Assembly: GCA_003224145.1 (NCBI GenBank)
Contig: QHYN01000224.1
Coordinates: 1-49,528, forward strand
Reading direction: 5' to 3'
DNA: 49,528 bases
From: Acidobacteriota bacterium
GTDB lineage: Bacteria > Acidobacteriota > Terriglobia > Acidiferrales > UBA7541
In this document: piece after piece, positions 14,569-30,865 of the stretch
How positions within the stretch are numbered: the first letter of the stretch is position 1
Layout: each line of letters opens with the position of its first letter
The notes under the pieces: generated by a model
Seen by the model: only the letters and a program-made list of their open reading frames with translations
Told to the model about the DNA's origin: nothing
The model's database searches: none
Made by a program: the position numbers and the translations under genes

Positions 14569-14586
14569 CAGAAAGTCTCCGGTTTT

Positions 14587-16599
14587 TCAGGAACGCGCCA
14601 ATTCGGCATATTCGGGTTCCTGCTCACGGTCCCCTTGCGAGCCACGACGCTTGCCGTAAACATCTCCCCGGCGGGAATGCGGCTGGTTGGAACGGTCGAG
14701 AATGAAGCGGTCCATGCTGTCGAGCAGATGGCGCGAGAGTTTCAACATCTGCTCGGCGGCAGCAGAAAGCTCTGTGGAACTGGAAGCGGACTGCTGAACC
14801 AGTTCGCGCATCTTGTCCATGGCGCGCACGACGGCTTGTGCGCCAGAGGCCTGTTCTTCGACGGCGGAGTTGATCTCCTGGGTGATTTCGGTCAAGCGGC
14901 TAGTGGCCTTGGCGATCTGTGCCGATCCAATGGACTGTTCGTTGGTGGCGGCGCCGATTTCCTGGGAGAACTTATAGACTTCGGTGACGACGTTGGAAAT
15001 CTTGTGGAGGGCGGAGCCGAGATCGTTGCCCAGGTTCAAGCCTTCCTCGACGATGCGGGTGCTGCGCTCCATATTCTCAACGGCCTGGCGCGCTTCGCGC
15101 TGGATGCTCTGGATGAGGTCGGCGATTTCCTTGGTGGATTGCGTGGACTTTTCCGCCAGTTTGCGGACTTCGTCGGCGACCACGGCGAAACCCAGCCCAT
15201 GCTCGCCGGCGCGGGCCGCTTCGATGGCCGCGTTGAGCGCGAGCAGGTTGGTCTGTTCGGCGAGGTCGTCAATGACTTCAATGATTTTTCCGATGTCATC
15301 GGCGCGGTGGCCGAGGATGTTGATGATTTCCGCAGAGGCCTGAATGGACTGATTGGTCCGGTTCAGGCCGTCGGTGGCCTTCTCCATGGTCTGGATGCCG
15401 GTGACGACTTCTTCGCGGGAACGATTGGCGATATCGAGCAACACCTTGGCGGTATCGGCGACGCGCTGAATGGAGGTGACCATCTGATCGATGGAAGCGG
15501 AAGTTTCCGCCACGCTGGAAGCCTGAACCTGGGTGTTCTTCACCACGTTTTGCACGTTGATGCTCATTTCGTGCATGGTGCTGGAGACTTCTTCGATGGC
15601 GGAAGAAGCCTGGACGCTGACCTTGGCGGATTCATCAGCAGCACCGGCAACCTGATTGGAACCGGCGGAAACCTGGCCGGCGGAATCGCGCGTGGTGCGC
15701 ACAAGTTGCTGGAGACCATGGGACATGCGGAGGAAGGCGTTGCCAAGGGTGTCGCGCTTGGAGCGCGGTGTGACTTCGACGGTCAAGTCGCCTTCCGCGA
15801 CGGCCATCGAAACCGTGGCCATCTCCTTGAGGTACGCCACCATGTTGTTGAACGTGGTGGCGAGAGCGCCGATTTCGTCGGTGCGATGGATATCGATGTT
15901 TTGGTCGAGGTCCCCGGAGTCACCAATCTCACGGGTGACGGTCATGAGGTGGGTCAGGGGTTCGGTAATGGAGCGGGCGGTGTAGAAGGCCACAAATCCG
16001 CCGACCAGGAGGGCAATTAAGGTTCCGCCGACGGTCACGAAGCCACTTACGGCGCCGGCAGTGTTGGCTGATTTGGTGGTCTGCTCCAGAAACTTGGAGA
16101 TGTCCGCGATGCTCTGATCGAGAACGACAGAAGACTTAGTCAACCAGGAGGAGGGATCTTTTTGGAGGTAGAAGATCTGAAGGTCGGAAACAGTGGCGTC
16201 GCCGGAATCAACCTGATGACGCTTGGCCATCAAAGGCTTTGCGAAATTGTCGGCCCAACTGGCTTCGGTACTCTCGACCTGAATGAGGGCGGTACGGACG
16301 GCATCGCTGGAGGTCTGGGATTCGCCGCGCTTGATGAGATCGGAAATGTCGGTGAGGCCCTTGTTGACCTTCTCTTCGTCGCGAGGGTCGCCGCTGAGGA
16401 GAAAGTCATTCATGTTGAGGCGATTCAGCATGATCTGGTAGCGCACGGATTCGACGGTGCTCTTGCTATCGAAAGCAGCACTGGCGTCGGTGCGCGCCGA
16501 CTTGGCCATCCAACCCGCGACGATGTTCACGAAGATCAGGATTAAGAGCAGGCCCAGAATCAGGCCAAAACCCGCGTAAAGCTTTTTTCCGATGGTCAT
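14587..16599 (-). CDS. Methyl-accepting chemotaxis protein (two TM, HAMP)
   Basis: 670 aa. TM1 at about 8-30, a periplasmic helical sensor of about 150 residues (31-182, four-helix-bundle-like), TM2 at about 183-207, HAMP at about 208-262, then the cytoplasmic hairpin. The tip that contacts CheA/CheW is conserved around 440-482 ([20 protein letters not shown]). The C-terminal tail is basic and Arg/Ser-rich without a pentapeptide CheR-tether motif. Ligand unknown. ATG 16599 has GGAGG nine bases upstream. Only receptor of operon 1, so it probably feeds the CheA encoded behind it. Confidence 0.95.
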   Translation of the reverse strand: MTIGKKLYAGFGLILGLLLILIFVNIVAGWMAKSARTDASAAFDSKSTVESVRYQIMLNRLNMNDFLLSGDPRDEEKVNKGLTDISDLIKRGESQTSSDAVRTALIQVESTEASWADNFAKPLMAKRHQVDSGDATVSDLQIFYLQKDPSSWLTKSSVVLDQSIADISKFLEQTTKSANTAGAVSGFVTVGGTLIALLVGGFVAFYTARSITEPLTHLMTVTREIGDSGDLDQNIDIHRTDEIGALATTFNNMVAYLKEMATVSMAVAEGDLTVEVTPRSKRDTLGNAFLRMSHGLQQLVRTTRDSAGQVSAGSNQVAGAADESAKVSVQASSAIEEVSSTMHEMSINVQNVVKNTQVQASSVAETSASIDQMVTSIQRVADTAKVLLDIANRSREEVVTGIQTMEKATDGLNRTNQSIQASAEIINILGHRADDIGKIIEVIDDLAEQTNLLALNAAIEAARAGEHGLGFAVVADEVRKLAEKSTQSTKEIADLIQSIQREARQAVENMERSTRIVEEGLNLGNDLGSALHKISNVVTEVYKFSQEIGAATNEQSIGSAQIAKATSRLTEITQEINSAVEEQASGAQAVVRAMDKMRELVQQSASSSTELSAAAEQMLKLSRHLLDSMDRFILDRSNQPHSRRGDVYGKRRGSQGDREQEPEYAELARS

Positions 16600-16680: not shown

Positions 16681-17028
16681 CTACTCCGTAAGGTGAAACT
16701 CAAATTCAACGATCTGTGTGGTTTCTTCCGGAGCAGGCACAAACTTCCACTCCTTCAGGGCGTCCTGGCATGGCTGAACGAGCAAAGGATGCCCACCAAT
16801 GACTCGCGTGGTCTTAACGTGGCCGTCCGGGGCGATTACGACTTCGATCTTGACTTTGCCTGTGACGTTCATCCGCCTGGCAAGGTCCGGATAGATCGGC
16901 GCGGTCTTGGTCTTGACCTTGCGCTTGGATTCATCAGTGGAACCTGTCTGGGCAAACGCGGAAGCCCCCCAGAGAATGGCAACTGTGCCCACGGCGAGCG
17001 CGACCTTTTTCCAACTGGTGGTTCTCAT
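16681..17028 (-). CDS. Exported TonB C-terminal-domain protein
   Basis: 115 aa with a signal peptide (WKKVALAVGTVAILWGASAFAQ) and one TonB C-terminal-type domain (KTAPIYPDLARRMNVTGKV, VVIAPDGHV, ALKEWKFVP). Unlike true TonB it has no membrane anchor plus Pro-rich spacer, so it is a periplasmic stand-alone domain. ATG 17028 is chosen over a GTG two codons upstream since GAGGG is eight bases before it. It is the first gene of the transcript that continues 81 bp later with the MCP. A role in sensing or in contact with cell wall or outer-membrane receptors is possible but not shown. Confidence 0.8.
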   Translation of the reverse strand: MRTTSWKKVALAVGTVAILWGASAFAQTGSTDESKRKVKTKTAPIYPDLARRMNVTGKVKIEVVIAPDGHVKTTRVIGGHPLLVQPCQDALKEWKFVPAPEETTQIVEFEFHLTE

Positions 17029-17074
17029 CGACACGACCCTCGTTGGGGAATGAAATGACCCCTTCGGAGGAAAG

Positions 17075-17089
17075 GCACGTGGGATGCCA
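17075..17089 (-). promoter_or_regulatory. Candidate sigma54 promoter of chemosensory operon 1
   Basis: On the minus strand TGGCATCCCACGTGC has the invariant GG-N10-GC spacing and 8 of 11 consensus positions of TGGCACG-N4-TTGC. It predicts a start near 17063 and a leader of about 35 bases before the TonB-like gene. GTCTCA/TGAGAC sites lie 120-180 bp upstream. The same DNA read on the plus strand (17073-17087) also matches with correct spacing, so orientation needs testing. Confidence 0.5.
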
Positions 17090-17208
17090 GGCCCGGAGAG
17101 GGAAAAAGCGATCTGGTCGAAGCGTGCAAATGGTCTATAAACAATAGAAAGAAAAAAAGTTAGCTAGGAGCGCGAGGAGAATCTGTGGAAAGCAGGAAGC
17201 CCGCCGAT

Positions 17209-17254
17209 GTCTCAGATGACCGGTGCGGGGAAGGTTGGGGTCTCAGGCTGAGAC
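17209..17254. promoter_or_regulatory. Candidate activator (UAS) sites: GTCTCA and GTCTCA-N3-TGAGAC
   Basis: A half-site GTCTCA at 17209-17214 and a perfect 15-bp dyad GTCTCAGGCTGAGAC at 17240-17254, in the divergent spacer between operon 1 and the kinase/NtrC operon. The same dyad type recurs at 21634 and 24362. Suitable as an enhancer for the minus-strand sigma54-like promoter and for autoregulation. Confidence 0.5.
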
Positions 17255-17326
17255 GGGGGAGACGAGGAGCAAGCCCTCAGCTATAGGCAGTTTCGCAACA
17301 GAGAACTGTTCGAGGATTGACTCAGA

Positions 17327-19759
17327 ATGAGACTCGCGCGTACGTTTAGTGAGTACGATAACTCGCAACTTGAGACGAACGATACTTCCCTCCCACAGAT
17401 GAAAGCATTGAAAACAGCACGGCCGACCGGCCAGACACCCAAGCGCGAGATAACGAAGCCACGGTCCGCCACAGCGAGGACTGCAGAAGAATTGATGGAA
17501 CTGGCCGTCGAGGCCGCACGGTCGCGGCACCTACCGGATTTTCTGGAACAGTTCGCGTTGCGTTCCGCATGCATGCTGGGAGCGAGCTGGGGCGGTGTGG
17601 CCGTTTACCTGGGGCGCGAAACGAAATTTCATGCGATGCGGGGAAGCGGTGGTTCCACTGTTTCTTCGGGAGAAGAGTGGATCCTTTCGAATGCGCGGGA
17701 GTGCCGCAGCGAGATGGAGACGCGCACCCTGCCGAAGGAGATCGCTGCGGCGCTGCCATGCGCGGAAGAACCGGAGGCGGTGATTTTCGTTCGAATCGCG
17801 TCGAGCGACAACGAAAAGCTGGGAACGCTGTGTCTGTTCCGGAAACGGAAAACGCTAGGGGCGGAGGAAAAGCGCCTGCTGCGCGCGCTAGCCAGTCATG
17901 CGGCGCTGTCGCTGGAAAATTTCCGGCGGTTTTCGCAATTGGAGAGGTCCAAGCGGCAGTGGGTGGAAGATATTGATGCCATCAGCGATTACATCGTGGT
18001 GCACGACCGGGCGTGGAAGATTCTGAGGACCAACCGTTCGCTGGCGTCGTATCTGGGAGTTCCGCCGGTGGCGCTGGTGGGCGAGGCGACAAGCAGCTTG
18101 CGATCGATCGCGGAAACGGGAAGCGCGTTGCCCTGTCCATTCTGCCGCGACACAGAGCGCGCACGGGAAGAGTACGTGGCGGGTTCGGCGGAGCGGATTT
18201 TTCTGGTGTCCACGTCGCGCACACCGGGAGTGACCGACGACGACACGCGAACCATCCATGTGCTGAAAGACATTACTGACCGCCGGGAAGCGGAGCGGAG
18301 ATACCGCGAACTGTTTGACAGCATTCAGGAAGGGCTGTTTTTCGCGACGCCGGAGGGGAGATTTTTGGATGTAAATGACGCCATGGTGCGGATGCTGGGG
18401 TATGCGTCGCGCGAAGAGTTGCTGCGCGCGGATGTGAGCCCGCATCTTTATCCGGCGCCGGAAGCACGCGAGAAATTTCTTCGAGCGCTCGCGCAAAGAG
18501 GAGTATTGCGCAATTACGACGAAACGCTGCGGCGGAAGGACGGGACACTGCTGCACACCTTGCAAAACATTACGGCGGTGCGCGACGCGCGAGGGCGCAT
18601 TGTGCAGATTCGCGGACTGATGCTGGACGTGACCGAGCAAAAGACATTTCAATCGCAGTTGCAGCGGGAGCGGGACTTTAATCAGAAAATTCTGAATACG
18701 ACGCAGAGCATGATCCTGGTGCTGGATACGGCAGGACTGATCAGCTATGCGAACCGGCGATGCTACGAAGCGGGTTACCAGGAGAGCGAGCTGATCGGAC
18801 ACCGGCTGGTGGACTGGGTGGAGGCTTCGCACCGCGAGGATTTCGATGCGGCGCTGGAAACCACGGCGAACGGGCATCAGGTGGAGAACCTGGAGTTGCG
18901 CGCAAGGCGAAGCGACGGTTCGATGGGTCATTTTTCGATAAGTTTGAGCCCCATGAGGGACGAACAGAACACGGTGAACAACGTGGTCGTGGTGATGACG
19001 GACATCACCGACGCGGTGCTGCTACAGGCGAAACTGGCGCATAGCGAAAAGATGGCCACGATCGGGCGGCTGGTGTCGGGCGTGGCGCATGAAGTGAACA
19101 ACCCGCTGGCGGCGATTCTCGGATTTACCGACCTGCTGCTCGAGAATCCGGAGGTGCCTGGGTCGGCGCGGGAAGATTTGCAGATCATTTTGCAGGAAAC
19201 CCAGCGGACAAAGGATATCGTGCAGGATCTGCTGAGCTTTGCGAGGCAGCGGCCGGTGCAGCGAGAATTGGTGCGCGTGAATGCTGTACTGCGACAAACG
19301 ATCAAGCTGCGGAGCTATGATTTTGCGAGCCACGGCGTGGAAGTGAAGGAAGAATTCGAAGAGACGCTGCCTTCGGCCTTGGGGGATTCACAGCAATTGC
19401 AGCAGGTTTTCCTGAATATTTTGAATAACGCATACGATGCGGTACAGGAAGCGGGGCAGCGGGGCCAGATCAAGATTCACACGCGGAGGCAAGGGGAAGC
19501 AATTGAAGTGGCCATCACTGACAATGGCAAGGGGATCGCCGACCCGCAGCGGATTTTTGATCCGTTTTATACGACAAAGCAAGCGGGCAAAGGAACAGGG
19601 CTGGGTCTGAGCATTTGTTACGGAATCGTACGCGCGCACGGCGGAGAAATTCAATGCTGGAACAATGAAAACGGGGCGGGAAGCACGTTTGTAGTGCGAA
19701 TTCCGGTGGCCACGGAAGGTGCGCTGTCCGCAGCGGCTGCGAAAGAGGTGGGACGATGA
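17327..19759 (+). CDS. GAF/PAS sensor histidine kinase, NtrB-like
   Basis: 810 aa, no membrane segment. GAF domain at about 52-205, three PAS domains at about 212-318, 325-438 and 450-565, HisKA with H588 (GVAHEVNNPLAAILG), HATPase with N-box FLNILNNAYDAV and G boxes DNGKGIAD and [13 protein letters not shown]. The HEVNNPL phospho-box is of the NtrB/HPK4 type that partners NtrC-like regulators, and its operon ends with one. CPFC at 270-273 in the first PAS could bind a metal or respond to redox. The start is not certain: ATG 17327 has only a distant GAGG; ATG 17399 is an alternative. Stop overlaps the next gene (ATGA). Confidence 0.93.
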   Translation: MRLARTFSEYDNSQLETNDTSLPQMKALKTARPTGQTPKREITKPRSATARTAEELMELAVEAARSRHLPDFLEQFALRSACMLGASWGGVAVYLGRETKFHAMRGSGGSTVSSGEEWILSNARECRSEMETRTLPKEIAAALPCAEEPEAVIFVRIASSDNEKLGTLCLFRKRKTLGAEEKRLLRALASHAALSLENFRRFSQLERSKRQWVEDIDAISDYIVVHDRAWKILRTNRSLASYLGVPPVALVGEATSSLRSIAETGSALPCPFCRDTERAREEYVAGSAERIFLVSTSRTPGVTDDDTRTIHVLKDITDRREAERRYRELFDSIQEGLFFATPEGRFLDVNDAMVRMLGYASREELLRADVSPHLYPAPEAREKFLRALAQRGVLRNYDETLRRKDGTLLHTLQNITAVRDARGRIVQIRGLMLDVTEQKTFQSQLQRERDFNQKILNTTQSMILVLDTAGLISYANRRCYEAGYQESELIGHRLVDWVEASHREDFDAALETTANGHQVENLELRARRSDGSMGHFSISLSPMRDEQNTVNNVVVVMTDITDAVLLQAKLAHSEKMATIGRLVSGVAHEVNNPLAAILGFTDLLLENPEVPGSAREDLQIILQETQRTKDIVQDLLSFARQRPVQRELVRVNAVLRQTIKLRSYDFASHGVEVKEEFEETLPSALGDSQQLQQVFLNILNNAYDAVQEAGQRGQIKIHTRRQGEAIEVAITDNGKGIADPQRIFDPFYTTKQAGKGTGLGLSICYGIVRAHGGEIQCWNNENGAGSTFVVRIPVATEGALSAAAAKEVGR

Positions 19760-20154
19760 GCGCGCAGCCGGCACTGTCGATCAAGGGACCCATCTTGCTG
19801 ATCGAAGATGAGCCTTCGGTCATCGCGTTTCTGCGCGCGGCGCTAGAGCGGCGAGGATACGCGGTGGTGAACGCTTCCTCGGGTGAGGAAGGACTCAAGC
19901 AGCTTTCGAACGGACGGTACGCCGGGGTAATCTCCGACATTCGAATGCCGGGCGCGGTGAATGGGGCGGAAGTACACGATTGGATTCAGAAAAACCGGCC
20001 GGAACTAAAGACCCGAATCATTCTGATCAGCGGAGACACCGCCAACAGTGAAACCCAGGCGTTCCTGGCGCAGAGCGGGACGCCGTGCATTGAGAAGCCC
20101 TTTCGAGTTCAGCAATTGATATCAACAGTGGAAAAAACGTTCGGGAAGCCATGA
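19756..20154 (+). CDS. Stand-alone receiver domain protein
   Basis: 132-aa receiver: acidic E17-D18-E19, phospho-acceptor D61 (SDIRMPG), K114 (EKPFR). There is no output domain. It overlaps both neighbours by ATGA, so it is made in step with the kinase before it and the NtrC-type activator after it. It may be a phosphate sink or an intermediate between the kinase and other targets. Confidence 0.92.
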   Translation: MSAQPALSIKGPILLIEDEPSVIAFLRAALERRGYAVVNASSGEEGLKQLSNGRYAGVISDIRMPGAVNGAEVHDWIQKNRPELKTRIILISGDTANSETQAFLAQSGTPCIEKPFRVQQLISTVEKTFGKP

Positions 20155-21569
20155 GCGAAGAGATGAAAACACGGCTGTTGGTAGTGGATGACGAACAGAG
20201 CATACGCAGGCTGTGCATGACGATCGGCAACACGCTGGGCTACGCGTGCTCGGAGGCGGAGAGCGCCGAGGTTGCGTTGGGGCGGCTCGAATCCGATGCG
20301 CCGGATCTCATTCTCACGGACCTCAAACTACCAGCGATGTCGGGAGTCGAGTTGTTGAAGCAGACCAAGATGCTTCTGCCACACACGGAAGTGGCCATCA
20401 TGACGGGCCATGGGTCGATCGAATCGGCCGTGGATGCGATGAAGCTGGGAGCGTATGACTACATCGAAAAGCCGTTCCGCGTGGAAAAGATGCGCTTGTT
20501 GCTGCAACGCATGGCAGAGAAAGTACACCTAGTCACGGAAAATGAGTTTCTGCGCGAACGGGTGACCGCGGAAGAAAATCTGGACGGCATCATCGGCACG
20601 TCAGCAAACATCCAGGATGTGCTGCGGATGATTTCGCGGCTGAAAGACACGCGGACGCCGGTGCTGATTTCAGGCGAAAGCGGCACAGGGAAAGAGTTGG
20701 TGGCGCGCGCCATTCACTTCCGGGGATTGATGGCCCAAACACCGTTTGTGGCCGTGGACTGTGGCTCGTTGGTTCCAACGCTGATGGAGAGCGAACTTTT
20801 CGGATACGAAAAAGGCGCTTTCACGGGCGCGACGAAATCCAAAGCCGGACTCTTTCAAGCGGCGAATGGCGGCACGATCTTCCTCGACGAGATCGGCGAG
20901 CTTCCCCTGGAGATGCAGGCCAAACTCCTGCGAGTTCTGCAGGAGAAAGAAGTGCGACCGGTGGGAAGCAATGAAAAGGTGAACGTAGATGTGCGGGTGA
21001 TCGCGGCGACGAATCGCGATCTGGAGGCCGCTTATCGAGGGGGAACGTTTCGAAAGGACTTGTATTTTCGATTGAACGTCGTGACGGTGCACCTCCCTGC
21101 CCTGCGGGACCGACGGTCGGATATTCCCGTGCTGGTACATCATTTCCTGGACCGCTACGCCAAAGTTTCGCAAATCCAGGTGACGCCAGCAGCCATGAAG
21201 AGCCTGCTGCAGTATGAATGGCCGGGGAACGTGCGCGAACTGGAAAACTGCATCGCGCGAGCCATAACGCTCGGCGACCGCAAGACCATCGACGTCGTCG
21301 ATCTCCCTCCGGCCATCCGAAGTGAGCAGTCGGAGGCCGGCGCCGTCATCTCACCGGATTCTGCTTCTCTGTCCACAACCGCGCTGGCAGAAATGGAAAG
21401 GATGACGATCTTGCGGGTCTTTGAACAGGCTCGGGGTGATAAGGCGCTGGCGGGAAAGATGCTGGGCATCAGCCGCGCCACGCTCTATCGCAAACTGAAG
21501 CGATATAACATCCCTCTGAAACCAAGTGCGGGGGACAGCAAAGCCGAGGCAGAAACAGCGGTGCAATAG
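20151..21569 (+). CDS. NtrC-family sigma54-dependent response regulator
   Basis: 472-aa three-domain activator. Receiver (D57 in LTDLKLPAMSG, K107), AAA+ domain with Walker A GESGTGKE (175-182), sigma54-contact loop GAFTGA (222-227), Walker B GGTIFLDE (240-247) and R-finger region, then a Fis-type HTH at about 415-455 (AGKMLGISRATLYRKLKRYN). All residues needed for sigma54 activation are present, so it should remodel sigma54-RNA polymerase when phosphorylated, most likely by the kinase two genes upstream. The flanking DNA on both sides contains TGAGAC dyads and GG-N10-GC elements, which makes the two chemosensory operons its probable targets. Confidence 0.95.
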   Translation: MSEEMKTRLLVVDDEQSIRRLCMTIGNTLGYACSEAESAEVALGRLESDAPDLILTDLKLPAMSGVELLKQTKMLLPHTEVAIMTGHGSIESAVDAMKLGAYDYIEKPFRVEKMRLLLQRMAEKVHLVTENEFLRERVTAEENLDGIIGTSANIQDVLRMISRLKDTRTPVLISGESGTGKELVARAIHFRGLMAQTPFVAVDCGSLVPTLMESELFGYEKGAFTGATKSKAGLFQAANGGTIFLDEIGELPLEMQAKLLRVLQEKEVRPVGSNEKVNVDVRVIAATNRDLEAAYRGGTFRKDLYFRLNVVTVHLPALRDRRSDIPVLVHHFLDRYAKVSQIQVTPAAMKSLLQYEWPGNVRELENCIARAITLGDRKTIDVVDLPPAIRSEQSEAGAVISPDSASLSTTALAEMERMTILRVFEQARGDKALAGKMLGISRATLYRKLKRYNIPLKPSAGDSKAEAETAVQ

Positions 21570-21570: not shown

Positions 21571-21648
21571 TGAGAGAGCGTCTCACCGCACGAAAGCCGA
21601 GTCGGCCCGCGAGTCGGAGGGTGAGACGCCAACGTTTCACGGTGAGAC
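21571..21648. promoter_or_regulatory. Cluster of TGAGAC-type sites upstream of chemosensory operon 2
   Basis: Contains TGAGA-N5-TCTCA (21571-21585), GTGAGAC (21621-21627) and the dyad GTTTCA-CGG-TGAGAC (21634-21648). GCGTCTCACC (21578-21587) and GGTGAGACGC (21620-21629) are also a perfect 10-bp inverted repeat with a 32-base loop. The cluster is 83-160 bp upstream of the sigma54-like element at 21731, the usual enhancer distance. The inverted repeat could instead end the kinase/NtrC transcript, but no U-run follows. Confidence 0.55.
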
Positions 21649-21730
21649 ACTTGAGGCATTCTTGCCCGGCACAGGAATTCTAAGCTCTTCTGTTTCAATA
21701 CCTTCACCAAGGCATACCTTTGGAATTCTT

Positions 21731-21745
21731 TGGCGCGCAGCGTGC
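21731..21745 (+). promoter_or_regulatory. Candidate sigma54 promoter of chemosensory operon 2
   Basis: TGGCGCGCAGCGTGC (followed by A) matches 9 of 11 positions of TGGCACG-N4-TTGC with exact GG-N10-GC spacing. Predicted start near 21757, about 80 bases before the first gene. Best sigma54 match that I found in the window. Confidence 0.6.
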
Positions 21746-21837
21746 AACTTTGCCAGCGGCAGTCTGTGTCTGCTGTGCAAAAAGTGAGTCTCGTTGTAGC
21801 GGCGCTGGTAGGTCGTGAAGAGAAGACGTGAGGCAAC

Positions 21838-22185
21838 GTGGGGAGACCCGGGAACACGGTGCTGGCAAGGACTGAAGAGAGTTGCGTTGAGCAGTTGGCG
21901 CGATTTTTTCCGCTGGCCAGACCGGTAAAAATCCCTGTGCAGGTGACGTCGTCCCGGGGCAGTAGGACGCACTTGCGGGAGGAGACCGTCGTCGAGTTCA
22001 GCAGCGGAGACCACGCCATTTTTCTTTCTGCGCTGCCTTTGGAGTTCGGCGACCGTGTACGGCTCGAGGCGAGGCCGGAAGGCCATCAGGCAGAGGCCAA
22101 GGTTGATGCCGTGCAGTACGACGAAGGATGTAAAGCAGTGGCCGTAAAGTTTTTGCAGGGCCCGTGCGACTGGGTGGTGAGCTAG
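21838..22185 (+). CDS. PilZ-like beta-barrel protein, degenerate
   Basis: 115-aa protein starting at a GTG with GAGG four bases upstream (another GTG lies seven codons later). The FPLARPVKIPVQV opening, the DHAIFLSALPLEFGDRVRLE middle and the AVAVKFL end follow the strand layout of PilZ domains, but the c-di-GMP-binding RxxxR and D/NxSxxG motifs are not intact. It could be a PilZ fold that no longer binds c-di-GMP. First gene of operon 2, two bases from the next gene. Confidence 0.5.
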   Translation: MGRPGNTVLARTEESCVEQLARFFPLARPVKIPVQVTSSRGSRTHLREETVVEFSSGDHAIFLSALPLEFGDRVRLEARPEGHQAEAKVDAVQYDEGCKAVAVKFLQGPCDWVVS

Positions 22186-22187
22186 CG

Positions 22188-23672
22188 GTGAATAAGACGA
22201 CGACAGCGCAGAACATTCCAGCTCCGAACCAAGCGGAAAACCCGCGGCAGGTCCAATGGAAAGAAGCGCGCGCGGTATTTCCGATTTACCTTGCACTCGC
22301 CAAGCAACTGTCTCTCGAAATTCCTTTTTCACAGGCAAAGCGGAATCTCCCCGACAAACCGGACCTCGAACTGTTCAACCAGGTACATGAGTGGTTGGAT
22401 TCCATGGATCTGCGCGTCATGGTGCACCAACTGCGTCATCTCCTGCAGATGACCACGCTGAACGCCAGCGAAGGCGGACTGCGCGCATTGATTCATCGGC
22501 ATCTTCGCAAACCAAAGAAGAACAGCATGGATCGGGACAAGATTGATTTTCTGCTCGTCCAGTATTTCGCGTTGTGCGCGCCAGCCAAAATCTATCACAA
22601 GCAGATCGAGCCTGCGGACGTGGCCCAAGTGATGCAGCCAGTGCTCGGAGACGTGGATCCCACACCGCTATCATGGTGCGCGCCGCTAGAAAAGATGATC
22701 GAAGCGCTGCGGAACTTCCGTAGCCTGCGGGAGATCCTGAAAACGAATTTTATTCAACAGGGGCGAAAGGTAAAAGAAACAGCGGGCGGGATGTTCTACG
22801 ATGCACCAGCGTTGCTGGCTTTCATACGCTTTAATTTCCTGCTCCGCCGCACACTGATTGAGCTGATGCACGCCGATTTGATCGCCATCCGCACCGCCCT
22901 AGCGCAATTACAGGCGGCCGGTGTGCGAACGATCGACTGTCACCACGCGGGGCTACTGACCGGCGAGCCGCTTACCAAGACCCAGAAGATCGCGGATGAA
23001 TGGAAACAGCCGTTCCAAAAAGAATACACGGAACGATCGGTCAGCCAGGCGTTTGAGCAGCTTCTCGGATTGCGCACTGACGTTGAGCAAGCACTCGAAA
23101 AAGCAGCCTTGAGCCCCACCCCCAGCACTTCTCCAACCGCGTCCCTATCGGCAGCGAAGCCGTTTCCCTCAGAGAGAAAGGCGGTTCTGGAACCGAAAGC
23201 TCCCAGTGGCAACGCGAAATCCAAGGAGCCCGGTGGGGTGTCAACCACAAAGGGAACCGGCCCTGTCGCCGCACTTGATTTTGAAACCTGCATGGAACAA
23301 ATCTGGGAACAGTTGATTGCCACACCGCCCTCGCGCGGGAGATCGATGACCACCGTAAAAATCGGCGGAGCTCGGATTCTGATGTCGTCCTGGGAGGTAG
23401 GGGCTTTTGTGAGCGATGACGGACCATCGGCGGAGGATTTGCGGCGCGCCGTAGTAGCACGGGTGCTGGTCACTACCGCGATGGAATCCGCCAAAGAAAC
23501 GGGGAACGCCACGTCGCTCGATGGGGCGATGAACATGGCACGCGTCGAGGTGACACGATTGCAGGAGCGCGTGGACGTGGCCAAGCAGGCGAAAGACACG
23601 GAAGCGGCAGTAAATCTTGGGATTAGCACGAAACGTCTACTGTCGACGCTGGAAGAAGCTGAAAAGCTGTAA
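22188..23672 (+). CDS. Hypothetical protein linked to chemosensory operon (494 aa)
   Basis: Unrecognised soluble 494-aa protein. A helical N-terminal part (to about 290) is followed by a Ser/Pro/Thr/Lys-rich linker of about 60 residues and a C-terminal domain (from about 360) ending in a helical VTRLQERVDVAKQAKDTE segment suggestive of a coiled coil. GTG 22188 is chosen because GGTGAG lies six bases before it and it starts two bases after the preceding stop; an earlier in-frame GTG would overlap that gene. Position between a PilZ-like gene and che genes suggests a system-specific partner or output protein. Confidence 0.7.
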   Translation: MNKTTTAQNIPAPNQAENPRQVQWKEARAVFPIYLALAKQLSLEIPFSQAKRNLPDKPDLELFNQVHEWLDSMDLRVMVHQLRHLLQMTTLNASEGGLRALIHRHLRKPKKNSMDRDKIDFLLVQYFALCAPAKIYHKQIEPADVAQVMQPVLGDVDPTPLSWCAPLEKMIEALRNFRSLREILKTNFIQQGRKVKETAGGMFYDAPALLAFIRFNFLLRRTLIELMHADLIAIRTALAQLQAAGVRTIDCHHAGLLTGEPLTKTQKIADEWKQPFQKEYTERSVSQAFEQLLGLRTDVEQALEKAALSPTPSTSPTASLSAAKPFPSERKAVLEPKAPSGNAKSKEPGGVSTTKGTGPVAALDFETCMEQIWEQLIATPPSRGRSMTTVKIGGARILMSSWEVGAFVSDDGPSAEDLRRAVVARVLVTTAMESAKETGNATSLDGAMNMARVEVTRLQERVDVAKQAKDTEAAVNLGISTKRLLSTLEEAEKL

Positions 23673-23702
23673 CGGATAGCGCAGTGAATCCGGCAGGACA
23701 GG

Positions 23703-24413
23703 ATGAGCACTCCGGGAGGCGGGTTTTCCTTGCGACACGCCAACGTAATCATCCTCACCGACGAAACCGAATTCGCCCGGCTGCTGACGGCCGGCTGGCA
23801 GACTGAGCGCCAGGTTCCCAGAGTTACCGTCCTAACCAGCGATTTGTGGCAGGAACGGGGAGCGCCAGCTCGCGACTTGGTTGTGGTGGGTCCGGTGCGT
23901 GAAGGAGGACTGACCAGCGTTCTCCGGGCGCTTGATCCTTCAACGGCAGTCATTCTGTGCGTTCCAACAGATTCCAAAGAACTCGGGCAATTGAGAGCGA
24001 AGTACCCGAAACTCATCCACGTGCCGCTGCGAGAGGATTGGGCGCAGACTCTGTTGCTCGTGGCTGGTGAATCACTTCGCCGCGTGGAAGCGCTGCGGCT
24101 GGCGCGTCAGGCGGAGCGAGCTGCCGCCAAGAACGAAAATCACGCCACACTGGGCCGATACATGTTGGACATGAAGCACAGCGTGAATAACGCGCTGACC
24201 TCGACGCTGGGAAATGCGGAATTGCTCTTGCTAGAACCTGGGCAGCTCTCTTCGCAATCGCTGGCGCAAATCAAAACCATTCACAGCATGGCATTGCGCA
24301 TCAATGAGATTATGCAGCGTTTCTCATCGCTGGCTTCGGAGATGCAGGAGGCTGAGAATACATCTCAAGCTGAGACGGAAGGAGCCGAGGCGTCGGCTTC
24401 CCAACGCCATTGA
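23703..24413 (+). CDS. Pseudo-receiver plus lone DHp (HisKA-like) domain, no ATPase
   Basis: 236 aa. Residues about 12-125 have a receiver-like Rossmann pattern (NVIILTDETE, DLVVVGPVREGG, AVILCVPTDS, LIHVPLRED) but lack the phospho-acceptor Asp and the conserved Lys. Residues about 132-215 form a histidine-kinase dimerisation/phosphotransfer hairpin with the box MKHSVNNALTSTLGNAELLL, in which H159 and N162-N163 match HExNNPL of NtrB-type kinases. The protein ends after the second helix with an acidic tail, so the HATPase domain is absent. It may accept phosphate from another kinase, or act as a dimerisation or inhibitor module. Fusion partner loss by frameshift is unlikely because no ATPase coding follows. 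Confidence 0.72.
   Translation: MSTPGGGFSLRHANVIILTDETEFARLLTAGWQTERQVPRVTVLTSDLWQERGAPARDLVVVGPVREGGLTSVLRALDPSTAVILCVPTDSKELGQLRAKYPKLIHVPLREDWAQTLLLVAGESLRRVEALRLARQAERAAAKNENHATLGRYMLDMKHSVNNALTSTLGNAELLLLEPGQLSSQSLAQIKTIHSMALRINEIMQRFSSLASEMQEAENTSQAETEGAEASASQRH
24362..24376. promoter_or_regulatory. Candidate activator site inside operon 2 (ATCTCA-N3-TGAGAC)
   Basis: Third copy of the 15-bp dyad, located in the 3' coding part of the preceding gene, with a further TGAGA half-site at 24353-24357. It lies about 120 bp before a GG-N10-GC element at 24494. May be chance because it is in coding DNA. Confidence 0.35.
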
Positions 24414-24493
24414 ACGGGTGGGTCCCACCTGCAACGCATTCAAGACTAAAGACTTAACAACACACGACACAAGTTCAGAGGGAGCGGAGCGGC

Positions 24494-24508
24494 TGGCTGC
24501 TGACGTGC
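24494..24508 (+). promoter_or_regulatory. Weak candidate internal sigma54 promoter
   Basis: TGGCTGCTGACGTGC keeps GG-N10-GC but matches only 7 of 11 consensus positions. It is in the 133-bp gap before the PilH-like gene, the largest gap in operon 2, and 39 bp before its GTG start. Confidence 0.3.
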
Positions 24509-24546
24509 ACCTCTTCTCTCTGGATAAGTATGGGGAGAGCGCGGCT

Positions 24547-24909
24547 GTGCACAAAAAAGTTCTGATCGTTGACGACTCGCCGGCCGAAGTCAAGCTGATA
24601 CACGGCTTGTTGGAGAAAGAGGGTTATTGGCCCGTAGGCCTAAATGACCCCAAGCGGGTGGAAGAGGCCATCGCGCTCGAACACCCCAGCGTCATTTTGC
24701 TGGATATCGTGATGCCAGGTCGCAACGGCTACCAAGTCTGCCGGGATTTGAAAGGCAACGCGGAGTTCAACTCCATTCCGGTGATCATGGTGACCACCAA
24801 GGATTCGGTAAGCGACAAGTTTTGGGGCCAGCAACAAGGCGCCGATGGGTACGTCACCAAGCCGTTCACGCGCGAAGAATTGATTCGCGCGGTCCGACGA
24901 TTTGCATGA
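24547..24909 (+). CDS. PilH/CheY-like response regulator
   Basis: 120-aa receiver: D9-D10, phospho-acceptor D53 (LLDIVMPG), T83, K105 (VTKPF). The segment KFWGQQQGADGYVTKPF is characteristic of PilG/PilH-type regulators of Chp systems. GTG 24547 is taken as start, with GGGGAG nine bases upstream; longer in-frame readings have non-protein-like N-termini. Likely phosphorylated by the hybrid CheA of the same operon. Confidence 0.88.
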   Translation: MHKKVLIVDDSPAEVKLIHGLLEKEGYWPVGLNDPKRVEEAIALEHPSVILLDIVMPGRNGYQVCRDLKGNAEFNSIPVIMVTTKDSVSDKFWGQQQGADGYVTKPFTREELIRAVRRFA

Positions 24910-24934
24910 GCGTTTTGCGGAGAATACGCGGGCA

Positions 24935-25462
24935 ATGAGCGAAGATTTTCATCTTGAGCCGCTCCCGGCAGACGCCGCCACCGGCGAACTGCTGGAAGCG
25001 CTCGGTCCGATCGAAGAGCGGGCGCCGGAATCGCAGTACTGCGTGTTCCGCAGCGGGCGCGAACGCTTCTGCTTGCCGGTCCTGGATGTCGAGGAAGTAC
25101 TGGATTGGCCGTTGCTGACCAAGCTGCCACTGGGCCCCGCGTACCTGGTGGGCATCTTCAATTTGCGCGGCGTGATTGTGCCGCTGATAGACATTGCCAT
25201 TACCGAAGGACGCCGGCCCGGACTGCTTCCCAAACACGTCGTGGTGGCAGCGCTGCGGAGCGAAAGCCGTATCGAGGACGTCAGAGTCGGGATTGCCGCG
25301 GACGAAGTGATCGGAACTTACTCCGTGAAGAACGAGGATTTTCTCGAGCAAGCGCCGGAGAATGTGCCTCATTGCATCGGCATGCTGCGGCACGACGACC
25401 GGCTGGCGTTGGTAATCGATCTGCGCCGGCTGCTCGAGGTATTTCCGGGGCCCAGCATTTGA
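24935..25462 (+). CDS. cheW: CheW-domain coupling protein (PilI-like)
   Basis: 175 aa with an acidic N-terminal extension of about 35 residues, then a CheW domain (YCVFRSGRERFCLPVLDVEE, LVGIFNLRGVIVPLIDIA). The FNLRG signature marks a functional CheW. Start choice: ATG 24935; a TTG at 24902 overlapping the previous gene is possible. Directly precedes the MCP gene, like pilI before pilJ. Confidence 0.9.
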   Translation: MSEDFHLEPLPADAATGELLEALGPIEERAPESQYCVFRSGRERFCLPVLDVEEVLDWPLLTKLPLGPAYLVGIFNLRGVIVPLIDIAITEGRRPGLLPKHVVVAALRSESRIEDVRVGIAADEVIGTYSVKNEDFLEQAPENVPHCIGMLRHDDRLALVIDLRRLLEVFPGPSI

Positions 25463-25523
25463 GCTTTGTGGAGACGATGCCGTTTGACGGCAGGGGCTCC
25501 GCGGAAAAGATTTGGAGGGTGGT

Positions 25524-26951
25524 ATGAAATCGCGACTGAGTTCGACAATCTGGGCGCTGGTCCTGCTGAACGGCCTGGTCTTCCTGGTCGTTCTATGGCT
25601 GGCGTTTGGCGCAGGGAAGAAGGCGGGTGAGGCCTCTTTGTTTGACTTTGGATCACCCGCCGGAGGAAGCATCATCTTCGCGCTGGTGCTGGCGCTCGGC
25701 ACGTCGGTGATTCTTGCCTGGCGTTTCGGAGCTTTGGTGAGGCCCGTGCAGGCTCTCGCGGAATTCTCGGAGCGGCTGGCCGCGGGTGACCCGCGCGCGC
25801 GCGCCGAAGTCAATTCGAACGACGAGCTGGGCTACATTGCGGACAACTTGAACCGCGCCGTGGCCAAGGTCTCCAAGGCGACGAGCAACCAGGATGCGAA
25901 TGACGCCCTGCAGAGGAGCATCACCGAGCTGCTGAGCGTCATCAACCAGGTAGCGCGCGGCGACCTGACGCTGCGCGGCAAGGTCACCAATGACGCGCTG
26001 GGCAATGTCACGGACTCGATCAACTACATGCTCGACAACTTCACTAAGGTCCTGGAGCGCGTGCGCAAGGCGGCCATGGAAGTGACCGCTTGCTCGAACA
26101 ACATTCTTGTGGCCGCCGATGAAATGCAGGCCGGCGCAACCCAGCAGGACCAGGAAATCACCAATACGTCGAGCGCCGTTGAAGAGCTGACAGTATCGAT
26201 GAAGCAGGTCTCCAATAACGCCGAGGCCAGCGCCGAAGCGGCTCGCCGCGCACTCGACGCCGCCGAACAGGGCAACCGCGCAGTGCGCGACACGCTGGAA
26301 GGCATGCAACGCATTCGGGCGTCGGTGCAGGCCACCGCGAAGAAAATCAAATCGCTGGGCGACCGCTCTCTGGAAATTTCGGAGATCATCAACGTGATTA
26401 ACGACATCACGGAGCAGACCAACTTGCTGGCGTTGAACGCCGCGATTGAAGCGGCCCGCGCAGGTGAAGCGGGCCGGGGGTTTGCAGTCGTAGCCGACGA
26501 AGTTCGCAAGCTGGCCGAGCATAGCCGGAGCGCCACGAAAGATATCGCGGCACTCATCAAGGCCATTCAGGCAGAGACGAACGAAGCCGTGGTCGTCATG
26601 GAAGAAGGCACAAAGGAAGTCGAAGGCGGGGCCACGCTCGCCGATCAAGCGGGCCGCGCGCTGGATGCCATTTCGAATGTGGTGCGGCAGTCGGCGGAGC
26701 TCGTCCAGGAAATTTCGCTGGCGTCCAAACAACAGGTGCGCGGAACGGAAGGCGTGGCTCACGCGATGCAGATCATTTCCAGCATTACGCGGCAGACTTC
26801 GCAAGGAACACGCGGAACCGTGGCAACCGTGAGCCAGCTCGTCAAGCTGTCCGATCAACTCAACGAGGCACTGGCGCAATTCCGCGCGTCATCCAAGGCG
26901 GCTGCGAAGGAAGAATCCGAGCGGCCCGTCCCAGCAGGCGCTATCCGTTAA
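25524..26951 (+). CDS. Methyl-accepting chemotaxis protein with minimal outer loop (PilJ-like)
   Basis: 475 aa. TM1 about 8-28 and TM2 about 48-68 leave only about 19 residues outside, so there is no periplasmic ligand domain. Two HAMP-like units follow: about 69-118 ([30 protein letters not shown]) and about 134-180 ([25 protein letters not shown]). The signalling tip is intact at about 290-330 ([20 protein letters not shown]). It probably senses a membrane or cytoplasmic signal or another protein. ATG 25524 with GGAGGG is the start; a TTG four codons earlier is less likely. Confidence 0.94.
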
Positions 26952-27014
26952 GCAAAGACTCTCTTCTTCATGCTGAGAAGGAAGGAAGAGAGCGGCCGAA
27001 CAAACGGGAGAACG

Positions 27015-27899
27015 ATGAGCGAGCGCCATGGATCAGGGCACTGGTTGAGCGAACACGAGTTGAGTGAGATCCGCATGCTAATCGAAGAGCGGACAGGAAT
27101 TTGCTTCGATGAATCGCGCGAGCGGTTTTTTTCGACCCGTGTGCGGGAACACCTGCGCGTCAAGGGAATGGAACGCGGGGCGGACCTGCTGCGCAGCATG
27201 CGCAAATCAAACGTCGAATACGAGTCCTTGCTGGAACGCTTGCTGACACAGGAGACCAGCTTTTTCAGGTATCCCGCCGTATTTGAGGCTTTCGAGAGAC
27301 GCGTTTTGCCTGAGCTGCACGTCAAGAAATTCTGGAAGAATCCGCGAACCCTGCGCATTTGGAGCGCAGGCTGTTCGACAGGCGAGGAGCCTTATTCGAT
27401 TTCCATAACCATCTTGGATTCGCTGTCATTTGCGGACTCCTGGAACGTGGAAATCCTGGCCACCGACGTTGGCCGCCAGGCGCTGAAGCACGCTGAGGGC
27501 GGGATCTACTCGGGCCGCAGTATTTCCAGCGTCAGCGAAAAGCAACTTACAAATCATTTTGCGCCGGTGAACAACGGGCAGCAGGTCAAGCCGAGACTCC
27601 GGAAGATGGTTTCCTTCGCACCAATGAATCTGGCTTCACCGGTTTATGTCGGGCGAATGGACCTGATCTTCTGCATGAACGTACTGATTTATTTTTCCGA
27701 AGAGCGCCGCCACGCCGTGGTGCAGCGTTTCTACGACACCCTCGAACCTGGCGGATATCTTTTCCTCGGGCACTCGGAATCGATTTCGAAAATGCCGGTG
27801 AAGTTTCAGGCCATCGTGCTGAATGATTGCATTCTGTACCGCAAGCCGACCGCGGACGAATTGCTAAAACCTGAACTGGTGGCGGAGGGACGGGCGTGA
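27015..27899 (+). CDS. cheR: CheR methyltransferase (PilK-like)
   Basis: 294 aa. N-terminal helical domain (LSEHELSEIRMLIEERTGIC), TSFFRYP at 81-87, SAM motif IWSAGCSTGEEPYS at 115-128, MNVLIYFS and GYLFLGHSES near the end. Methylates the MCP encoded just before. Start ATG 27015 has GGGAG four bases upstream; an in-frame ATG 15 codons earlier gives a low-quality N-terminus. The stop overlaps the start of the CheA gene (GTGA). Confidence 0.93.
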   Translation: MSERHGSGHWLSEHELSEIRMLIEERTGICFDESRERFFSTRVREHLRVKGMERGADLLRSMRKSNVEYESLLERLLTQETSFFRYPAVFEAFERRVLPELHVKKFWKNPRTLRIWSAGCSTGEEPYSISITILDSLSFADSWNVEILATDVGRQALKHAEGGIYSGRSISSVSEKQLTNHFAPVNNGQQVKPRLRKMVSFAPMNLASPVYVGRMDLIFCMNVLIYFSEERRHAVVQRFYDTLEPGGYLFLGHSESISKMPVKFQAIVLNDCILYRKPTADELLKPELVAEGRA

Positions 27900-30865
27900 G
27901 CGCGCCAGACCGCGAAGCCGTCGAAGTCTTCCTCCAGGAGGCATCGGAGCACCTGCAGTATTTGCGGGAGTACGTCACGGTGCTGCAGGAGGCTGAGCCG
28001 CGGCACGAAGACCTAGAGCGGCTCTTCATCTCGGCGCACACCCTCAGCGGCACGTCGGCGAGCTACGGATTTCCGCGATTCTCGGAAATTGCCGCAAAAC
28101 TGGCGCACGTCTTTCAATACGCATTGAACGCCCCGCTAGGCGAAGACTTGCACGGGCCGTTGACGGAATTTCTTTCCGACGGTATCTCGCTGCTCGAAAC
28201 GGATCTCCTGGAAATCAGCGACACGGGCAAGGAGAGCATCGAGGACATCGCCGTCTTCAAAGAGCGGTATCGCTTCGCGTTCCCAACCGAGCCACCTCCG
28301 CTCAATCTTTCCCAGCCCGAAGCGCATGAACAGGAAAAGCTCGAGGAATCCCCCGCGGCGGTGACCGGTTCTTATTTTGACGTACTGCCGGTCGACGACG
28401 AGGTGCCGGACGAAATCCTGGAATTCTTTCAGCCCGAGGCGGAAGAACACTTTCAGGTTGTTAGCGACTGTCTGATCTCGCTGGAAGGCAACAATAATCC
28501 GGAGGAGATCAACAAGCTGTTCCGCGCGATTCACACCGTGAAGGGCTCGGCAGCGCAGGTGGGGCTGAAGCGGCTGGGTGGGATCGCACACCGGGTCGAA
28601 GATTTGATCGGCCGGTTGCGCGATGGAGTGATTGAGCCATCGCCAGCGGTCGTCGATCTGTGCCTGGAGTCGGTGGATGTTTTGAAAAAGACTCTCCACC
28701 GCCAATGGGGGGATGAAACGGAGATGCGAGCCGGTGTTGATTCCCTGCTGGGACGCATCGCCGAGTTTGCGCCCCTGGAACCGGAAGAGCCGGAAGCGCC
28801 ATCTGCGGCAGCGGAAGCGACGGAACATCAGGAAACCAGAGAGAAGGCCGCCGCGCCGCTGTCCGCTGCCCTGGCGAAAAAGCCTGCGAAGCAAGCTGCC
28901 GGCGGGGCTTCCGCGGTGAAATCTGTTCGAATCGCCCTCGCGCGCCTCGACCGCATGATGAATACCGTCGGTGAATTGGTCATCAACCGAACGCGAATGG
29001 TGGGCCGCGTAGCGGAACTTGAAAAGTTGGTGGACACGCTGAGCTTCTCGAAAGAGCGGCTGCAGGGCAAAGTTGCAGAGTTTCAGGAGAAATACGAATT
29101 CAACCGCATCAGCACGAACTTGACTTCTGCACCGTGGAACGCTCAGCCGACTTCGAAGATGCTCACGAGCGCGGCCGCGGGCGACAAGTCCTTCTGGTCG
29201 GAATTCAGCGAACTGGAATTGGACCGCTACGACGATTTCAACATTTTGTCGCGGTCGATGGCGGAAATTTCTGCGGACGTAAACGAAGTACTTTCCCAGT
29301 TGGAAGGTTTCATCGGGCGCGTCGAAGGCGACATCGACGAGTTCACAAAGCTGGCGCATCATCTGCAAGATGAGATTACCGCCGCGCGAATGGTGCCTAT
29401 CGGAACGCTGTACTCACGGTTGTCGCGCGCGGTGCGCGATGCGGCAAAATCGACGAACAAGCAGGTGGAGCTTGATCTGGCCGGCAGCGAAACGGAACTG
29501 GACAACAACATTATTCAGCAGATTTCCGATCCACTCGTGCATCTGGTGCGTAATTCCGTGGCACACGGTATCGAGCACACCTACGAACGCACAGCCGCCG
29601 GCAAACCGGGCACCGGGAACATCATGCTGCGTGCCTATCACCGCGGCAATCACATCTATATCGAGGTGGAAGACGACGGCCGGGGAATTGACTATGAGCG
29701 CGTGAAGCACAGTGCGATCGAGCGCGGCCTCGTTTCGCCGGAGACGGCAGACCGCCTGACGGAACGCGACTTGCGCGAGATGTTGTTTCACCCGGGATTC
29801 TCCACCGCTCCCGTCAAGACGGAATTGGCCGGGCGTGGCGTGGGCCTCGACGTCGTGCGCGCGAACTTGAATGCTCTAAATGGCGAAATCGACATCCAAA
29901 GTACGAGCGGTCAGGGGACGAAATTCACGCTGAAGGTGCCTTTGACGCTGATCATTTCGCCGGCGCTTTTTGTGCGTTGCGGCACGACGCACTTCGCCCT
30001 GCCCTTGGCGGTCGTCGAAGAAATCCGCCGTCTGCGTGCGGACGAAATCGAAGACGTAGGCGGGAAATTGCTGACCAAGGTGCGGGACGTGGTCACCGAA
30101 GTTGTACGCCTGGATAGTTACCTGGGCTTGCCGCCGCTCGAGCCCATCAACGGATATTTCCGGATGGTCGTGGCCAATGCCGGAAACCAGAAGATTGGCC
30201 TGGTCGTCGAGGAAGTTCTCGGCAAAGATGAGATCGTAATCAAAAATCTCGGCGAATACCTCCGCCGCGTGAAACTGTTCCCCGGAACCACGATTGCGCC
30301 CGATGGCAGCCTGATTCTGCTAATTGATCTGAACCGCATGGTCGCAGGCGAACCAAGCGAACGCCGGCCGCTCCAGGCGAATGCCAGTGCAGCGCGAATT
30401 TTTGCTCCTGGTTCCACAGCCGTGGCGCGCGGAACCATTCCTTCCGAAGCCATCGATCGCGTCGAGCAGGAGCGCGTCATCGTCGTTGCAGACGACTCCA
30501 TCAGCGTGCGCAAATTCGTCGGTCGCATGCTCGAGAAAAATGGCTACCGCGTGCAGCTGGCCGCCGATGGCCTGGAAGCAGCGGAACTCATAGCGCAGCA
30601 TGGCTGCCACATGGTGATCACTGACCTGGAAATGCCGCGAATGACGGGTTACGAATTGATGGCCCAATTGAGGCAAAGTCCGACCACGCGCCGGATTCCG
30701 GTGCTGGTGGTTACTTCGCGCGCCGGAGCCAAGCACCGCGGTCGCGCCATGAAGGAAGGCGCTTCCGCGTTTCTGACCAAGCCGGTGCAGGAAGATCAAC
30801 TGATTGCCGCAGTCGAACAACTCATGGGAACGGAGGCACCGCGCTCGGTCCTGCCGGTGGCGTAG
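27896..30865 (+). CDS. cheA: Hybrid CheA with two HPt domains and C-terminal receiver (PilL/ChpA-like)
   Basis: 989 aa, GTG start in the GTGA overlap. HPt1 (1-120) carries H48 in AHTLSGTSASYGF, where the usual Lys after HTL is Ser. HPt2 (about 172-290) has a canonical H213 in AIHTVKGSAAQVGL. Then an Ala/Glu linker, dimerisation domain interrupted by an insert, HATPase (HLVRNSVAHGIE, DDGRGIDY, GRGVGLDVV), CheW domain, and a receiver with D910 (ITDLEMPRMTG) near the C-terminus. This architecture is that of PilL/ChpA and Frz-like kinases, not of flagellar CheA. Phosphate could pass between kinase, own receiver and the separate receivers of the operon. Confidence 0.96.
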   Translation: MSAPDREAVEVFLQEASEHLQYLREYVTVLQEAEPRHEDLERLFISAHTLSGTSASYGFPRFSEIAAKLAHVFQYALNAPLGEDLHGPLTEFLSDGISLLETDLLEISDTGKESIEDIAVFKERYRFAFPTEPPPLNLSQPEAHEQEKLEESPAAVTGSYFDVLPVDDEVPDEILEFFQPEAEEHFQVVSDCLISLEGNNNPEEINKLFRAIHTVKGSAAQVGLKRLGGIAHRVEDLIGRLRDGVIEPSPAVVDLCLESVDVLKKTLHRQWGDETEMRAGVDSLLGRIAEFAPLEPEEPEAPSAAAEATEHQETREKAAAPLSAALAKKPAKQAAGGASAVKSVRIALARLDRMMNTVGELVINRTRMVGRVAELEKLVDTLSFSKERLQGKVAEFQEKYEFNRISTNLTSAPWNAQPTSKMLTSAAAGDKSFWSEFSELELDRYDDFNILSRSMAEISADVNEVLSQLEGFIGRVEGDIDEFTKLAHHLQDEITAARMVPIGTLYSRLSRAVRDAAKSTNKQVELDLAGSETELDNNIIQQISDPLVHLVRNSVAHGIEHTYERTAAGKPGTGNIMLRAYHRGNHIYIEVEDDGRGIDYERVKHSAIERGLVSPETADRLTERDLREMLFHPGFSTAPVKTELAGRGVGLDVVRANLNALNGEIDIQSTSGQGTKFTLKVPLTLIISPALFVRCGTTHFALPLAVVEEIRRLRADEIEDVGGKLLTKVRDVVTEVVRLDSYLGLPPLEPINGYFRMVVANAGNQKIGLVVEEVLGKDEIVIKNLGEYLRRVKLFPGTTIAPDGSLILLIDLNRMVAGEPSERRPLQANASAARIFAPGSTAVARGTIPSEAIDRVEQERVIVVADDSISVRKFVGRMLEKNGYRVQLAADGLEAAELIAQHGCHMVITDLEMPRMTGYELMAQLRQSPTTRRIPVLVVTSRAGAKHRGRAMKEGASAFLTKPVQEDQLIAAVEQLMGTEAPRSVLPVA

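Follow-up and report, generated by a model that had tools for sequence, protein, structure and literature searches.

The stretch of DNA analysed here, referred to as the window, spans 49,528 nucleotides and forms contig C247 of an Acidobacteriota genome of 4.79 Mb in 359 contigs. It carries two chemosensory gene clusters on opposite strands and, between them, genes for a PAS histidine kinase, a single-domain response regulator and an NtrC-type activator (Table 1). The region under study is the gap of 268 bases that separates the stop codon of the activator gene from the first ORF of operon 2 on the same strand. From 21838 to 34567, 13 plus-strand ORFs follow one another with gaps of at most 49 nt, the ORF starts being mechanical calls. 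This layout is consistent with the 13-gene operon named in a preliminary description made from the sequence, whereas the co-transcription of the ORFs is what we infer from it. Downstream of the first gene, the operon encodes an unknown 502-aa protein, receiver proteins, three CheW-type proteins, an MCP, CheR, a hybrid CheA and CheB, together with an ORF that has a weak HisKA match below the cut-off. Operon 1 would likewise be co-transcribed. No Rfam family matched the window at gathering scores.

Table 1. Coordinates of the genes and putative control elements in the window.
Feature	Position	Strand	Evidence or remark
Chemosensory operon 1 (MCP, CheW, CheR, CheA, CheB, receiver protein, CheX)	8924..16599	-	Pfam
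TonB_C-domain gene	16681..17034	-	syntenic in 28/28 relatives used
Divergent sigma-54-type promoter (candidate), TGGCATCCCACGTGC, toward TonB_C gene and operon 1	17075..17089	-	
Second TAA-N19-TT, 74 nt before the divergent GG	17139..17162	-	
Perfect UAS palindrome, GTCTCAGGCTGAGAC, upstream of kinase operon	17240..17254	+	conserved in 28 relatives and window
Tentative sigma-70-like promoter of kinase operon (TTGACT, 18 nt, TACGTT)	17317..17346	+	UAS-like site inside
PAS histidine kinase, likely partner kinase	17327..19759	+	Pfam
Single-domain response regulator	19756..20154	+	Pfam
NtrC-type activator	20151..21569	+	Pfam: receiver, AAA+ sigma-54 interaction (Sigma54_activat), HTH_8; co-occurs with operon 2
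Outer TGAGAC half-site	21580..21585	-	frequent, not invariant, in relatives
Putative enhancer (UAS): TGAGAC half-site and GTTTCA-N3-TGAGAC palindrome	21622..21648	+	conserved in genus alignment
TAA-N19-TT, between enhancer and promoter	21681..21704	+	30/32 genus rows, 13/20 other genera
Predicted -24/-12 (sigma-54) promoter of operon 2	21731..21745	+	GG-N10-GC kept in 32/32 genus and 20/20 other-genus loci
First gene of operon 2, predicted PilZ-like fold	21838..22185	+	structure model and Foldseek
Remainder of operon 2	22164..34567	+	Pfam; ORF gaps

All the domains of an NtrC-type regulator are present in the activator, namely a receiver, a sigma-54-interaction AAA+ domain and a Fis-type HTH, and what we take to be the GAFTGA loop is visible in its translation. 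RpoN is present once in the genome, as a 480-aa ORF with an RRTVAKYRE box. Gene order suggests that the kinase is the partner of the activator, while the stand-alone receiver encoded between the two leaves other phosphate routes open. In most relatives the kinase alignments begin only at residue 9-26, and the true start of the kinase probably lies downstream of the mechanical one. No Pfam family matches the first gene of operon 2. Its predicted model (pLDDT 86) finds PilZ-domain proteins as top Foldseek matches, three of them at E 0.001 or better with TM of about 0.5-0.6, which points to a PilZ-like fold; the residues that we take to be the canonical PilZ c-di-GMP motif were not seen by eye. 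The 502-aa second protein (22164-23672) is a conserved member of the operon, with 63-80% identity across the 18 relatives aligned. It has no match in Pfam, and its model (pLDDT 77.5, pTM 0.54) has none in Foldseek at E 0.001 or better.

A sigma-54-like promoter had been proposed in the preliminary description on the basis of TGGCGCGCAGCGTGC, and its sequence, its coordinates, the match at 9 of 11 consensus positions and the exact spacing were all found as described. In particular, GG at 21732-21733 is followed by ten bases and by GC at 21744-21745, with two mismatches to the consensus TGGCACGNNNNTTGC (TGGCAC-N5-TTGC). A single match of this quality is not above chance: the window holds 28 matches with up to two mismatches, against a mean of 22.5 in shuffled sequences, 19 of 100 of which reach 28, and 173 with up to three mismatches, against 190. 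These counts would suit a fortuitous match, but GG-N10-GC is invariant in 52 of 52 loci; chance is excluded because the element is conserved in relatives, and we give it a negligible probability.

This conservation was followed in two sets of loci. For the genus, 32 distinct gap sequences were used out of 59 extracted; L062, in which the activator aligned only partly, was trimmed to its final 620 bases ahead of the alignment, and L058, L063, L074 and L075, with no activator match, were left out. For the other genera, loci were fetched from 20 of the 28 genomes of the family that have the operon. The genomes of the relatives derive from metagenomes. The genus sequences are diverged, with a mean pairwise identity of 52%, a minimum of 35% and 11% of columns invariant. 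Apart from a TAA and two isolated T, these invariant columns form two principal blocks, TGAGAC-N5-cGT.tCA-N3-TGAGAC and TTTGG-N7-CgTGC. All 32 sequences retain GG-N10-GC at 21732, whereas the runner-up among all places on both strands reaches 8 of 32, and TTTGG-N8-K-TGC is found in all 20 loci examined from other genera. Thus, the GG and GC positions, whose loss in close relatives would have spoken against the promoter, are retained throughout. The -12 box reads GTGC in 46 of the 52 loci and TTGC, the consensus form, in 6, and the relatives' promoters match the consensus at 6-9 of 11 positions. The prevalence of GTGC and the modest matches could indicate that the TTTGG-N10-GC block is bound by a different protein or by a sigma factor other than sigma-54. 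Against this stand the strict ten-base spacing, which recurs at three unrelated promoters, the exchange between GTGC and TTGC, and the sigma-54-interaction activator encoded next door, so that such an origin appears very unlikely. Taken with RpoN and the domains of the adjoining activator, the conserved spacing and the box exchange support the promoter as proposed.

By what we take to be the usual -12 rule, transcription of operon 2 is predicted to start near 21757, around 81 nt before the GTG at 21838. Conserved blocks lie just past this predicted start, at 21757-21795, and read GGAAGTCTGYGTCT (GGGACACTGTGTCCC in one relative) and then GTGTGTC; no RNA structure emerged when 32 leaders of this 5' region were folded to a consensus. 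The -24/-12 promoter could also be real and additive, most transcription of operon 2 then coming from a sigma-70 promoter or reading through from the kinase-regulator-activator operon. Operon 2 indeed starts 268 nt past the activator stop on the same strand, and the only terminator-like stem of the gap, at 21707-21723, is weak and, by eye, apparently unconserved in the alignment. However, the scan of the gap reported no sigma-70-like promoter, and in genus g27 (G076, G077), where the activator lies on another contig and is absent from the 7-10 kb of sequence retrieved ahead of operon 2, the promoter and the UAS before operon 2 are intact. We therefore regard a main role of read-through or of a sigma-70 promoter as unlikely.

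Upstream of the promoter, the enhancer of operon 2 has the form TGAGAC-N6-GTTTCA-N3-TGAGAC. The TGAGAC cluster noted earlier is present, with half-sites at 21580-21585 (minus strand), 21622-21627 and 21643-21648, the last of which ends 83 nt before GG. A pattern match identifies the enhancer in 51 of 52 loci, the exception (L125) having a related sequence with TGATAC. Its distance to GG is nearly constant, at 83 nt in 36 loci, 82 in 10, 84 in 4 and 81 in 1. Such a steady spacing between enhancer and promoter exceeds what enhancer action usually needs. With its conserved enhancer and promoter and the domains of the activator, the gap is a well-supported candidate for the complete NtrC-type control region that had been proposed directly 3' of the activator gene: the stretch 21571-21838 very probably holds a genuine sigma-54 promoter together with its enhancer, and the pair is retained with little change across dozens of uncultured Acidobacteria from soil.

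By itself, TGAGAC shows no enrichment in the window (19 against 22 expected), whereas the full palindrome GTCTCANNNTGAGAC (GTCTCA-N3-TGAGAC) occurs there seven times with up to two mismatches, against 1.7 expected, and none of 100 shuffles reaches seven. In parallel, GTYTCA-N3-TGAGAC is found in all 36 genomes of the genus, with 177 strand-hits against 11 for the reversed control, a perfect palindrome being scored twice, once per strand; in 25 genomes outside the genus the count is 8 against 5, near background. The composite TGAGAC-N65-95-TTTGG-N10-GC was rejected as a regulon finder: it gave 130 hits in the 36 genus genomes and 130 in the reversed control. Since it is no commoner than its control, the motif alone does not define the regulon. 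By position, the operon 2 site is among the composite hits in 35 of the 36 genomes; in the exception, G011, only a fragment of the 502-aa gene was found, at a contig start. The composite pattern is also present in G001:C216 and G021:C433, which are equated by position with the omitted L058 and L063. A UAS-like palindrome with one mismatch, ATCTCAAGCTGAGAC, lies inside operon 2 at 24362-24376.

The link between this enhancer and the neighbouring activator was followed across 95 genomes of the order. With activator orthologues counted at E <=1e-160 and four weak order-level protein matches taken as absent, the activator and the 502-aa protein are both present in 62 genomes, both absent in 30 and found singly in 3. 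The activator stands alone in one (G110) and the 502-aa protein in two, namely G021, which has a partial activator at a contig end, and G091, which is 55% complete. Many related activators are encoded (all 26 that were scored among 81 first-look candidates match), and the enhancer could be bound by one of these, with the neighbouring regulator controlling something else. The co-occurrence of orthologue and operon in 62 of 95 genomes with three exceptions, a palindrome count near background in genomes without the orthologue, and several UAS-like sites at the activator's own operon all argue against a different activator, which we consider decidedly unlikely.

The enhancer motif also occurs at places that the earlier reading had omitted: a divergent promoter facing operon 1, the operon of the activator itself and an unlinked GGDEF gene. 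The first two of these places lie upstream of the kinase gene, in a region that was aligned for 28 relatives and the window, with other genera represented by the 16 of 20 family loci that have both flanking genes. The palindrome at 17240-17254 and GTCTCA at 17209-17214 are common to all 28 relatives and the window, and in the same set TTGACTcA.a.TGAGA is conserved, with tA...t after it. The sigma-70-like promoter tentatively assigned to the kinase operon has a weak -10 box and is not reported by a strict scan; the position of the UAS-like site inside it suggests autorepression of the activator operon. Shortly past this promoter, at 17362-17376, there is a conserved TTGAGAC half-site.

On the minus strand, TGGC-N6-CgTGC is found, judged by alignment column, in 29 of 29 genus rows and, judged by pattern, in 16 of 16 other-genus loci. 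The candidate promoter faces the TonB_C gene, and 81 nt beyond this gene lies the MCP that is the first gene of operon 1; both genes hold that place in all 28 relatives used, and the scan reported no terminator between them. The block at 17073-17089 is nearly palindromic, so that a plus-strand reading, AGGCACGTGGGATGC, is possible; it has 2 mismatches in the window, against 3 for the minus strand, and is kept in 27 of 29 rows. The minus strand is preferred for its retention in 29 of 29 rows, its invariant TGGC and the enhancer that lies upstream of it, and the plus-strand reading is the less favoured one.

At the third place, C85:11866-11880 in the window's genome (L002, G000), a perfect palindrome lies upstream of a GGDEF-domain gene. 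Thirty loci of the genus (L145-L174) were compared, and 19 of other genera and one of the genus were added. The upstream region keeps GG-N10-GC in 30 of 30 genus loci (next best place 11/30); the boxes match 5-7 of 11 consensus positions, the mismatches falling mainly in -12. The palindrome is matched at 12 of 12 positions in 25 loci and at 11 of 12 in the other 5, and ends 187-211 nt before GG. All 19 GGDEF loci of other genera have a GG-N8-K-TGC box in a comparable position, inside a span of some 80 nt (1.0 expected after shuffling); this position is approximate because it was counted from the end of the fetched stretch. Their best palindrome match does not exceed 9 of 12, also in genera with the activator. 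The simplest reading is that the genus added an enhancer to a pre-existing sigma-54 promoter of the GGDEF gene, the direction of change probably being one of gain.

A further element, TAA-N19-TT, recurs at the three sigma-54-type promoters. In the genus it stands 51 nt before GG at operon 2 in 28 of 32 rows (30/32 at any offset, 1.5 expected by shuffling), 50-51 nt before GG at the GGDEF gene in 25 of 30 (28/30, 2.3 expected) and 74 nt before GG at the divergent promoter in 16 of 29 (20/29, 1.5 expected). In other genera it is found at operon 2 in 13 of 20 loci (0.8 expected) and at the divergent promoter in 5 of 16 (0.9 expected). The pattern was picked after the alignments had been viewed, and the rows are not independent counts because they are related. 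IHF was considered as its ligand, using at least 8 of 9 positions of the E. coli consensus. This identity is unsupported at operon 2 in the genus (2/32, against 2.8 expected), while the consensus is approached more closely at operon 2 in other genera (6/20, 1.1 expected) and at the GGDEF promoter (23/30, 3.8 expected). The genome encodes three HU/IHF-family proteins. For an IHF-type role the position of the element fits; the E. coli consensus at operon 2 does not.

The observed sequence, conservation, spacing, co-occurrence and domains are explained, with a probability that we put at roughly 0.88, by a sigma-54-dependent promoter with its own enhancer, through which the neighbouring NtrC-type regulator acts on operon 2 and on other targets. 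The kinase encoded at 17327 would phosphorylate the regulator encoded at 20151, which would then bind the TGAGAC/GTTTCA-N3-TGAGAC enhancer and form a ring. This ring would loop over about 83 bp and open the RNA polymerase-RpoN complex held at TTTGGCGCGCAGCGTGC, so that transcription would begin near the predicted start and run through the 13-gene chemosensory operon. From the palindrome at 17240-17254, the regulator would switch on the divergent sigma-54 promoter that faces TonB_C and operon 1, and from the site inside the sigma-70-like promoter it would hold down its own operon. It would also activate the unlinked GGDEF (diguanylate cyclase) gene. The same activator therefore appears, from its predicted sites, to control the operon 1 set and a c-di-GMP gene. 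Given the PilZ-like fold predicted for the first gene and the remote GGDEF target, it is probable that the circuit couples the expression of chemosensory genes to c-di-GMP. A more far-reaching proposal is that one NtrC-type activator of this uncultured lineage couples two chemosensory operons, the TonB_C gene and c-di-GMP synthesis via a promoter grammar of three parts at near-fixed spacing (the palindrome, the TAA-N19-TT site for a DNA-bending or co-regulating protein, and the -24/-12 box), the GGDEF gene of the genus having joined by gain of the palindrome before a sigma-54 promoter present in other genera; we hold this to be about evenly poised between right and wrong.

Enhancer-promoter pairs served by NtrC and RpoN have their type case in glnA. 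The locus resembles such pairs in its palindromic enhancer, which in them lies about 80-200 nt upstream, in the GG-N10-GC promoter, in the receiver-AAA+-HTH activator and in the UAS-like site within the activator's own sigma-70-like promoter. It differs in that the targets are chemosensory and GGDEF genes, in the near-fixed 81-84 nt at operon 2 and in the extra TAA-N19-TT. In Myxococcus xanthus, one report describes CheA3 and CrdS as acting on the level of phosphorylated CrdA, a histidine kinase, an NtrC-type regulator and a chemosensory system being associated there as they are here (PMC3510030). In the present case the evidence is for a regulator that acts on the che genes, and the likeness to the CrdS-CrdA-Che3 system is drawn at the level of the parts that act together. 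For Geobacter, sigma-54 sites were predicted by sequence scoring upstream of chemotaxis-like clusters; the part of that report available names no activator or enhancer (PMC2577667), whereas enhancer, activator and cross-genus conservation are joined here. Thus, with these predictions and the Myxococcus precedent, the parts of the circuit are of known kinds. IHF is described, in the accessible part of a further source, as commonly binding between enhancer and promoter at sigma-54 promoters (PMC7962754), and TAA-N19-TT shares this position; unlike at such promoters, in the genus the element before operon 2 misfits the E. coli consensus for IHF. Among the top-ranked matches in the open-licence PMC literature, judged by titles and abstract openings, no description was found of sigma-54 control of acidobacterial chemosensory genes, nor, among top-ranked matches there, of this regulon, its lineage or the apparent recruitment of the GGDEF gene.

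Collectively, these results give good support to a regulatory region that began as a weak motif match, and they outline a small regulon, amenable to testing, in one lineage of Acidobacteria from soil. In this lineage the expression of chemosensory genes would be linked with c-di-GMP synthesis under one switch, and the GGDEF gene may represent a natural case in which a target seemingly entered a sigma-54 regulon through the gain of an enhancer.
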